Shown one piece after another: positions 45,276 through 47,716 of a stretch of 64,000 bases of DNA. Under the pieces are notes generated by a model. That model saw only the letters and a program-made list of their open reading frames with translations. It was not told the origin of the DNA and did no database searches. The DNA comes from Sphingobacteriales bacterium. Lineage in GTDB: Bacteria > Bacteroidota > Bacteroidia > Chitinophagales > Chitinophagaceae. The stretch is from positions 1 to 64,000 of the forward strand of contig SEFT01000020.1 in assembly GCA_004144175.1 (NCBI GenBank). The letters run 5' to 3'. The first letter of the stretch is position 1; every line of letters starts with the position of its first letter. The translations under genes and the position numbers were made by a program.

Positions 45276-47234
45276 CTACTGCTTTAAGAGCTTCACCTGC
45301 TGGGGCTGCATGCCTTTTGCTGAGATGTTCAGGATATAATTGCCCGTGGGCAGCTGCGATGCAGGTATTATTTCCGTAGTACTATCTGCCCGTCCCTTCC
45401 AGATTGTTCTGCCTGATATGTCAATTAGCGTTAGCCTTACGTCAGCCGGCAGGTTGCGTACCTCCCATTGGCTGTCTGCAGGGTTGGGCAGTATTTCAAT
45501 AGTAGATATATCGAACGCTCTTACAGCCAGCTTAGGATCTTTCATTATTGCGCTGCTTCTATTTAGCACATGGTCTTCAGGATCTACCTGTACACCTGTC
45601 ATCGTTCTGTCCCATGCAAAGGTGTAGGTCTGCAAATTGCTGTTGTTATATATCTTAACGACTGTATCCCCTGTAGTCGAACGCAATTTCAACTCCAGCG
45701 GCATTGAAAAAGCGGCTACTGAAGCCGGCTTGCTGGTCGATTGTGTCAGCTGCACATATACTGCATTGCCGCTTTGGTACCATTTACCCCCGTAGGTTGG
45801 GAAGCCTTCTTTATACACCCATTGGTCGAAGAAAGTGTCCAGGTCGTAGCCGTATATCTGCTCCGCTTTATTTTTCAGGTCTTCCGTATTAGCAAAGCCC
45901 ATAGTGTACTGCTGCTGAAACTCTGTAAGAAGTTGGAAGAATTTTGCATCGACAGGTGCCATGTAGCGCAGCATGTGCGCAACTGATGCGCCTTTATCAT
46001 AGGTAAGCCCGCGGTTGAAAACAGCTGAAAGGTTCATTGTATCTGTTACGAACAGAGTGCCCGATACGGTTGCAGCATTAAATGTGCTTGTTCGCAACGC
46101 TTTTTGTTCAGCAGCACCCCGAAAGCGTTCGAGGTAAAGCTGTTCGCAATAGGTGGCAAAACCCTCGCTTAGCCATATATGCTCCCAGGTACCGTAGGTA
46201 ACATTGTTACCAAACCACTGGTGCCCCAGTTCGTGCGCGATAAGCCGGGGATCAGGACTACCAAGTGTAGTCATTGTCTGGTGTTCCATACCACCGCCAA
46301 TCACAGCAAAGCAATGGCCATATTTTTCTTTATAGAAAGGATACTTACCAAATAACTTAGAAAAATAATCGACGATATTGCCTGTACTATCCAGTGCATT
46401 CTTGGCATTAGCCGTCATAAAGCTGGCTGAATCGGTAATGTAATTCTGGATCAGCATGGAGTCGCTGCTACCATCTGTGAAGTGCATGTAATAAGAGTAG
46501 TCAGCATAGGGAGCTACTGCAACCGAAATGAGGTAGTAATCTATAGGATATTTTGTCTTCCACTCAAAGCGGTGCTTATTACCAGCAACCGGGGTTATAT
46601 TTTGAAGCAGGCCATTACTGCCAGCTCTCAGAGTATTATCCACCGTCACCCATATATCTACCGAGTCGATCTTGTCGAGCAATGTTTGCTTGCTGGGCCA
46701 CCAGTCGTCGGCTGTATACATATCGCTCATGGTATGCATTACATGCGTGCCCGATGGGAGCACATTGTGATTGAGCCCGGCACCAAAAAAGCTGGAGCCT
46801 GACGTAGGCTGCCCATGGTAAATTACTTGCGCTGAGAAAATACTGTTCTGCGGAATAGCTGTCGCAAGGCTAACCTTTACTACAGGACCGGTACGCGCGA
46901 TAGATGAAGCAGATATAGTGTTCCCGTTAATCTTTATCTGATCAATAGTAAGCTGGCTATCGAGCTCAAACGCATACAGATTAAAGCCTGCAATCAATAC
47001 CTGCGCAGAAGTAATGACGTCGCCTGTAATAGCAGTAGAGGTATTGGTTAGCCCAAGATCGAACTTTACGTGTTTGATATCGTAGTTAAGCTCTTCAGGA
47101 GTAGCTGTAGTTGATTTTGCAGCGCTTTTATTCTTTTTGTAGTAGTGGCTGCATGGGGTTCCTCCGGCAACTGCATTTGTTGCAACAGTAAGCAGCATCA
47201 GGAGAAAAGTAACTTTCAGGTTCTTGTAATTCAT
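45276..47234 (-). CDS. Secreted M1 zinc aminopeptidase with T9SS type A sorting domain
   Basis: 652 residues. Signal peptide MNYKNLKVTFLLMLLTVATNAVAGG; M1 N-terminal saddle at about 45-245; catalytic domain with GGGMEHQTM near 313-321 (a GxMEN variant with His for Asn), HELGH at 334-338 and the third ligand Glu357 in LSEGFATY. The last 80 residues (from about 570) are a T9SS type A sorting domain: IEILPNPADSQWEVRNL, LTLIDISGRTIWKG, LPTGNYILNI. The protein is therefore exported by T9SS and probably attached to or released from the surface. A TTG at 47270 is in frame but would lie inside the upstream repeat. Its start codon sits in the nested inverted repeat at 47207-47284. Confidence 0.92.
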   Translation of the reverse strand: MNYKNLKVTFLLMLLTVATNAVAGGTPCSHYYKKNKSAAKSTTATPEELNYDIKHVKFDLGLTNTSTAITGDVITSAQVLIAGFNLYAFELDSQLTIDQIKINGNTISASSIARTGPVVKVSLATAIPQNSIFSAQVIYHGQPTSGSSFFGAGLNHNVLPSGTHVMHTMSDMYTADDWWPSKQTLLDKIDSVDIWVTVDNTLRAGSNGLLQNITPVAGNKHRFEWKTKYPIDYYLISVAVAPYADYSYYMHFTDGSSDSMLIQNYITDSASFMTANAKNALDSTGNIVDYFSKLFGKYPFYKEKYGHCFAVIGGGMEHQTMTTLGSPDPRLIAHELGHQWFGNNVTYGTWEHIWLSEGFATYCEQLYLERFRGAAEQKALRTSTFNAATVSGTLFVTDTMNLSAVFNRGLTYDKGASVAHMLRYMAPVDAKFFQLLTEFQQQYTMGFANTEDLKNKAEQIYGYDLDTFFDQWVYKEGFPTYGGKWYQSGNAVYVQLTQSTSKPASVAAFSMPLELKLRSTTGDTVVKIYNNSNLQTYTFAWDRTMTGVQVDPEDHVLNRSSAIMKDPKLAVRAFDISTIEILPNPADSQWEVRNLPADVRLTLIDISGRTIWKGRADSTTEIIPASQLPTGNYILNISAKGMQPQQVKLLKQ

Positions 47235-47284
47235 TGTTATTACAACTTGCGGTGCTTGATACCGCAGCAACCTGAAAGTTACTT
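47207..47284. repeat. Nested inverted-repeat structure around the M1 peptidase start codon
   Basis: A perfect 16-bp inverted repeat, AAGTAACTTTCAGGTT (47207-47222) and its complement (47269-47284), encloses two smaller hairpins: TTGTAAT/ATTACAA (47224-47230 with 47239-47245), whose 8-nt loop holds the start codon, and TGCGGT/ACCGCA (47248-47253 with 47261-47266). Only five bases are unpaired at the junction. On the minus strand the 3'-proximal arm is the first codons of the signal peptide. As RNA this folds to a three-way junction; as DNA it could be paired operators. Confidence 0.6.
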
Positions 47285-47335
47285 CTTTTAAGGACGTAAA
47301 AATACAGCTAAGTAAGCTTTCACTCGGTGATTCTC

Positions 47336-47668
47336 TTACACCGCCGCTGCAGTATAATTTTCAACATAATGACGGTTCTCTGTACCTACAATCTGAAGCG
47401 CGAGGTTGCGGATAGAAGGGAACAGCAATTCGTATACATTCTTCTTGCTAACAGGTACATCTGTTTCTTGCATGCCCAGTATATATATTACTGACTCAGG
47501 CACTTCCAAGGCCTCACACACTCTTTTTATCGTCCGTGTACTTGGTCTTTTAATTCCATTTTCGATCTGTGAAAGGGACGTTTGCGAAATATCGCATCTG
47601 TTTGCCAATTCGTACTGTGTGATGCCCAGTTGTCTTCTGATAGATCTAATTGCAAATCCGATGTTCAT
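47336..47668 (-). CDS. XRE-family helix-turn-helix regulator
   Basis: 110 residues. Residues 5-60 are a Cro/C1-type HTH (IGFAIRSIRRQLGITQYELANRCDIS and QTSLSQIENGIKRPSTRTIKRVCEAL). The C-terminal half (about 75-110) has no recognised domain and may mediate dimerisation. Such small regulators often control a neighbouring gene. The gene is divergent from a short unknown gene, with a 225-nt gap that contains repeats (47717-47859). The target is unknown. Codon use is like that of the neighbours, so there is no sign of recent transfer. Confidence 0.85.
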   Translation of the reverse strand: MNIGFAIRSIRRQLGITQYELANRCDISQTSLSQIENGIKRPSTRTIKRVCEALEVPESVIYILGMQETDVPVSKKNVYELLFPSIRNLALQIVGTENRHYVENYTAAAV

Positions 47669-47716
47669 AATAAATGGTGTTAATTGTTTTCTATTAAATT
47701 TTCGTTTGTGGGGGTA

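Follow-up and report, generated by a model that had tools for sequence, protein, structure and literature searches.

The translation start of a secreted M1-family peptidase gene in this genome is enclosed by a perfect 16-bp inverted repeat. The repeat is a single outlier among the gene starts of its own genome and, as far as our searches of other genomes go, appears confined to this species. The reading that we favour, with a probability of about 0.52, is that the repeat originated as a lineage-specific inverted duplication by template switching, and that it constitutively lowers the translation of transcripts containing both arms.

Geometry and predicted fold of the start-enclosing repeat

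The repeat lies at the start of the M1 gene on the minus strand of the window (the whole stretch of 64,000 nt that was analysed), and its two arms are complementary at 16 of 16 positions and stand 46 nt apart (Table 1). In the predicted minus-strand RNA, the 78-nt element folds as a three-way junction made of the 16-bp stem and two hairpins of 6 and 7 bp, with the ATG in the loop of the 7-bp hairpin and five unpaired bases at the junction, which confirms the geometry given in a preliminary description of this DNA. The minimum free energy (MFE) of the element was −32.1 kcal/mol, compared with a mean of −12.33 (sd 2.72) for 200 dinucleotide shuffles, none of which folded as low (z = −7.27). The inner 46 nt by themselves were mildly unusual, as noticed post hoc (z = −2.79, p = 0.013); the exceptional part of the element is the long stem.

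Table 1 Features of the M1 peptidase start region, with positions in the window
Feature	Position	Strand	Description
M1-family peptidase gene	45276–47234	−	652 aa; Pfam Peptidase_M1, 92 bits
Downstream arm	47207–47222	−	AACCTGAAAGTTACTT; codons 5–9 (NLKVT) and one base of codon 10
Inner hairpin 2 (predicted fold)	47224–47245	−	7-bp stem TTGTAAT/ATTACAA; 8-nt loop AACAATGA with the start codon
Start codon of the M1 gene	47234–47232	−	ATG
Inner hairpin 1 (predicted fold)	47248–47266	−	6-bp stem TGCGGT/ACCGCA; 7-nt loop
Upstream arm	47269–47284	−	AAGTAACTTTCAGGTT; leader side, −50 to −35 from the ATG
P2, alternative predicted −7 box	47274–47281	−	TAACTTTC; inside the upstream arm; 3.05 bits; predicted start ~47269
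P1, best predicted −7 box	47297–47304	−	TATTTTTA; 9.5 bits; predicted start ~47292
Xre-type HTH gene	47336–47668	−	Co-directional, 101 nt upstream of the M1 gene

The M1 protein ends in a region resembling a C-terminal sorting domain (Por_Secre_tail, 26.7 bits, just below the Pfam cut-off of 27). Together with the −7 motif described below, this end points to a member of the Bacteroidota. The downstream arm falls in the predicted signal-peptide codons, and by our own reading the signal peptide would still look ordinary without codons 5–9.

The element was compared with a background of 1234 gene starts, crudely called in 1.65 Mb of the 4.34-Mb genome (38%) as ATG-first ORFs of at least 120 aa (at least 150 aa for the sample of 268 upstream regions used for motif counts). 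A strongly folding hairpin is not in itself unusual: 141 of 41,200 plus-strand segments of 78 nt folded as well or better. The M1 start had the lowest MFE of the 1234, by a narrow margin (−31.5, with −30.9 as the runner-up), and values near −30 with the ATG likewise enclosed by pairs occurred at several further starts. The number of predicted pairs enclosing the ATG, 22, was also found at two other starts, with weaker energies. What sets the M1 start apart is the perfect arm: within −80 to +60 it was the only one of the 1234 starts with a perfect ATG-enclosing arm longer than 11 bp, while the arms of the remaining starts, 11 bp or shorter, were distributed as in the shuffles, where the maximum over 4936 starts was 12 bp. 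Wider gaps, of 81 and 109 nt, separate the arms of two 12-bp repeats that likewise bridge called starts. That so much complementarity is unlikely by chance, as the preliminary description held, is therefore borne out, and the element is not explained by chance alone. No class of similar start-enclosing repeats was detected among these starts in the same interval, and the element is a single outlier, not one of a class.

The 16-mer arm had no second exact copy in the 4.34 Mb of the genome and four further sites at one or two mismatches. The element is single-copy in its own genome, which rules out a multi-copy repeat of the REP or MITE kind or a mobile element. Viral contigs contained no exact arm-gap-arm match, and blastn of the 161-nt region against phages and plasmids returned no match.

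Distribution in relatives and ancestry of the two arms

An M1-family match was present in all 59 genomes searched, including that of this species, with many of the matches outside the genus being distant. In the genus, all 14 relatives have the HTH gene ahead of their M1 gene or genes, and TerC lies downstream in six of the seven examined on that side, the contig of the seventh (G001) ending first. Twelve of the 14 relatives carry two adjacent M1 genes. The HTH gene has just one M1 gene beside it in G013, in G001 (whose contig stops within that M1 gene) and in the present species, and the distance between the HTH and M1 genes in these three genomes is 90–101 nt.

The repeat did not accompany this conserved neighbourhood. 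It was absent from all 22 orthologous starts read (L003–L024 of the 29 loci L003–L031, with L025–L031 left out; starts were picked by script), and in the 19 of these that were scored, the longest perfect ATG-enclosing arm was 8 bp and the MFE ranged from −3.7 to −14.5. Some first-M1 starts of the relatives had MFE values down to −26.1 kcal/mol (G014). A covariance model of the element matched only the element itself among 15 genus genomes, with no match in the 14 others. The M1 proteins of the genus, the closest relatives in the comparison, are 51–62% identical to that of this species over the matched stretch, and a scan of contigs for closer ones returned six loci with only 35–39% identity. 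A conserved RNA element is thus ruled out for the relatives compared, and the distribution suggests a restriction to this species.

To trace the arms, we inspected the regions upstream of the first M1 gene in the relatives. All 12 genomes with the tandem pair have a predicted promoter box at this place, either TAACTTTA (eight genomes) or TAATTTTA (four), which we treat as promoters by prediction from sequence. The TAACTTTC of the upstream arm is close to TAACTTTA. The resemblance of part of this arm to a −7 box, noted earlier, holds. The upstream arm and its flank also align with the first-M1 upstream region of G007 (TTAAAAGAAGTAACTTTCAGGTT versus TTTAAATGAGGTAACTTTAGGTT, score 32), with a family-wise p of 0.002 over 14 regions and 10,000 shuffles. 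Against a harder control of 827 unrelated upstream regions from its own genome, five scored as high against the set and one against G007 alone. The arm reached p = 0.05 or weaker with each of the other 13 relatives; the homology is moderate and strong only to G007, and this counts against the proposed origin. The region of the coding arm had no significant match among 28 gene starts of the relatives (best p = 0.29). Since the coding arm has no significant match and the upstream arm resembles the upstream region of a relative, it is more likely that the upstream arm was the source, and the coding arm is probably its inverted copy.

In the eight relatives with TAACTTTA, a further sequence, GGGGGATTT, lies upstream of the box in the form ACCC-N-GGGGGATTT, before the tandem M1 pair. 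The strict pattern from GGGGGATTT to the box occurs once per genome in eight of the 15 genus genomes and has no match in the genome of this species; looser forms occur in four more genomes, which brings the loci concerned to 12 (L165–L171, L065, L067, L068, L070 and L071), and the element is absent from the three genomes with a single M1 gene. This element is possibly a dedicated promoter or operator.

Several of these observations point to a template switch. A single lineage carries the perfect repeat, and its relatives lack it. The presence of one M1 gene here, in G013 and in G001, compared with two in 12 relatives, also argues for this origin, and a lone outlier of 16 bp among starts with at most 11 bp suits a single event better than a gradual build-up. 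The inner hairpins, somewhat stronger than their shuffles as well, argue against one event. According to the available text of PMC8794818, template switching can make perfect stems in one step, and the hairpins described there share with the M1 element a perfect stem that arose in one lineage by inverted copying and has a plausible source nearby. They differ in that the event here is a proposed one and that its target is a translation start. Among the literature matches listed, titles and abstract openings contained no description of this element. Work on quasipalindrome mutation in E. coli is reportedly related to template-switch hairpins.

Predicted promoters and effects on translation

Under the favoured reading, replication template switching would have placed an inverted copy of about 16 nt of the M1-operon promoter in the signal-peptide codons of the operon's own gene. 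A transcript with both arms, initiated at P1 or read through from the HTH gene, would then fold into a stable three-way junction enclosing the start codon, and its translation would be lowered constitutively with no sensor or regulated opening required. We infer in this way the event, its direction, the promoter used and the effect on translation. The phylum lacks Shine-Dalgarno sequences, and in Flavobacterium, structure around the start tunes or lowers initiation (both from the portion of PMC6847099 available). The ATG triplet itself was predicted to be unpaired (0.98–0.99 at 37 °C), and several other called starts also enclose their ATG at an MFE close to that of the M1 start, so that any damping would be of uncertain size.

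Which RNAs carry the fold depends on the promoter. A −7 box model learnt from 827 upstream regions of the genome gave TAnnTTTG, with a terminal A tolerated, which is the known −7 consensus of the phylum in the parts seen of PMC6847099 and PMC9723704; the same two sources, to the same extent, place the box at −12 to −5 relative to the transcription start. The predicted start from P1 is 8 nt before the upstream arm, so the entire fold would be within the P1 mRNA, and that from P2 is just past the upstream arm, leaving the long stem outside the P2 mRNA. P1 was favoured over P2 by about 43 to 1 when box score and position were combined, and an earlier model from 268 regions, with that of the M1 gene left out, ranked them likewise (10.39 and 4.11 bits). 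In 15.5% of the 827 regions the best site scored at least as high as P1, as did 2.2% of the shuffles of this region. A further site at −83 (5.27 bits) would likewise keep the arm in the RNA, and a scan for sigma-70-type promoters found none. The preliminary description had cautioned that the stem would be missing from the mRNA if transcription started near 47269. In favour of this caveat, the box in the arm resembles that of the relatives; against it, the promoter model of the genome prefers P1.

A start at P2 is central to the main rival of constitutive damping, which is on the whole unlikely although it ranks first among the alternatives. Here P2 would produce a stem-free mRNA, read-through or P1 RNA with both arms would be poorly translated, and the repeat would shield the gene from read-through. 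Structures that lock the start are known to give such protection against read-through to IS10 tnpA, from outside transcription, and to T4 gene e (lysozyme). As in these systems, the upstream arm contains a promoter-like box, so that short transcripts would be free of the lock that long ones form over the start; unlike in them, the box here is degenerate, a stronger box lies upstream and the transcripts are predicted. The likeness of the arm to the predicted box region of the relatives is consistent with this reading, as are the co-directional HTH gene upstream, with no terminator-like site on the minus strand between it and the M1 gene, and the enrichment of the 7-mer TAACTTT upstream of genes (18 occurrences in 268 regions, compared with 5 on the opposite strand and 3.6 after shuffling). 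The predicted P2 RNA, lacking the long stem, had a mean unpaired probability over −15 to +15 of 0.50 or 0.46 (for two lengths) at 37 °C, compared with 0.39 for the P1 RNA. However, the P2 RNA is just moderately more open, TAACTTTC ends in C and TAnnTTTC was not enriched in the same regions (16 versus 11 on the other strand and 14.8 in shuffles), P2 scored below both P1 and the site at −83, and the strict GGGGGATTT-box pattern of the relatives is missing here. The effect of the repeat is most likely either constitutive damping of translation or the blocking of read-through transcripts, with damping ranked by us as the default.

If the template-switch origin with damping is true, the M1 start would be a bacterial case of a large RNA structure born in one mutation over a translation start with its source segment still recognisable, as well as a natural test of how far structure alone limits initiation and of how regulatory RNAs may originate. 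It also warns against equating a very strong, very unlikely fold over a start codon with a conserved switch.

Next in rank, and likewise unlikely, is a cis-regulatory RNA of this species, in which the junction would lock the start until opened by a protein, a ligand, a trans RNA or slow co-transcriptional folding. The compact nested fold with the ATG in a loop, its energy being the lowest among the called starts (though narrowly), and the P1 box, from which the mRNA would carry the entire fold at its 5′ end, speak for it. Against it stand the single copy in the genome, the lack of a model match in the 14 other genus genomes, orthologous starts that are not unusually structured, and the fact that no alternative fold was identified. 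The Rfam search of positions 46800–47700 also gave no hit that passed the gathering threshold of its family: the best E was 0.22, and the two miRNA families matched scored far below theirs. The preliminary description, too, had recognised no known riboswitch class. The preliminary description had proposed an RNA switch or thermometer and had named conservation of the arms in orthologues as its check; with the repeat absent from the 22 starts read, the switch fails except if it was born in this one lineage. A sensing switch is possible, the one argument for it being the shape of the predicted fold.

Still more doubtful is the combination of a newborn, species-specific gate with a particular history. 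In it, the −7 box of the promoter would itself be the antisense arm against the first codons, and the choice of promoter would decide translation, with the P2 RNA translatable and the P1 or read-through RNA locked; the gate would have been built in one template switch where the tandem M1 pair collapsed to one gene.

Paired DNA operators 62 bp apart, also put forward earlier, are very improbable. Two 16-bp sites in inverted orientation, some six helical turns from each other and next to an Xre-type HTH gene, would suit a repressor that loops the DNA, for example the product of that gene, but the genome search for the 16-mer, with no other exact copy and just four near matches, gave this reading no support, and the HTH gene is upstream in all 14 relatives, in which the repeat was not found. 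The weakest reading, an RNA thermometer, shares the enclosed start codon with known thermometers and start-sequestering riboswitches and has an A+T-rich inner stem holding the ATG, but it differs in showing no conservation among the orthologues and no Rfam match, and it is rejected by in silico melting, in which the 16-bp helix, predicted to be too stable to melt, kept a paired probability of 0.92 or higher up to 75 °C and the surroundings of the start loosened little, their mean unpaired probability being 0.36 at 15 °C and 0.44 at 55 °C, so that the start region did not open over the physiological range.

Other inverted repeats in the genome

A second perfect inverted repeat, of 15 bp and in a different arrangement, was found in the same genome at G000:C32:196290-196418 (L053:16290-16418). 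The ATG of a 433-aa ORF lies in its upstream arm, which pairs with the ORF's own coding sequence about 100 nt further on, and the encoded protein has only distant matches elsewhere in the genus (at most 32% identity).

Long palindromes that we call REP-like were found at three places of the genome (C4:25153-25300, C4:26886-27007 and C4:39147-39283; GTCCTTAGTT...AACTAAGGAC and GCGAAGTGAAACGA...). Those at C4:25153-25300 and C4:26886-27007 are long perfect inverted repeats like the M1 element; they lie outside called genes, whereas the M1 element occurs once and extends into coding sequence. At L079 (around 1914-2430), the start of an ORF lies within strongly folding, imperfect repeats of roughly 20 nt (GTATCTGATGTCAGTTTCATT-like).
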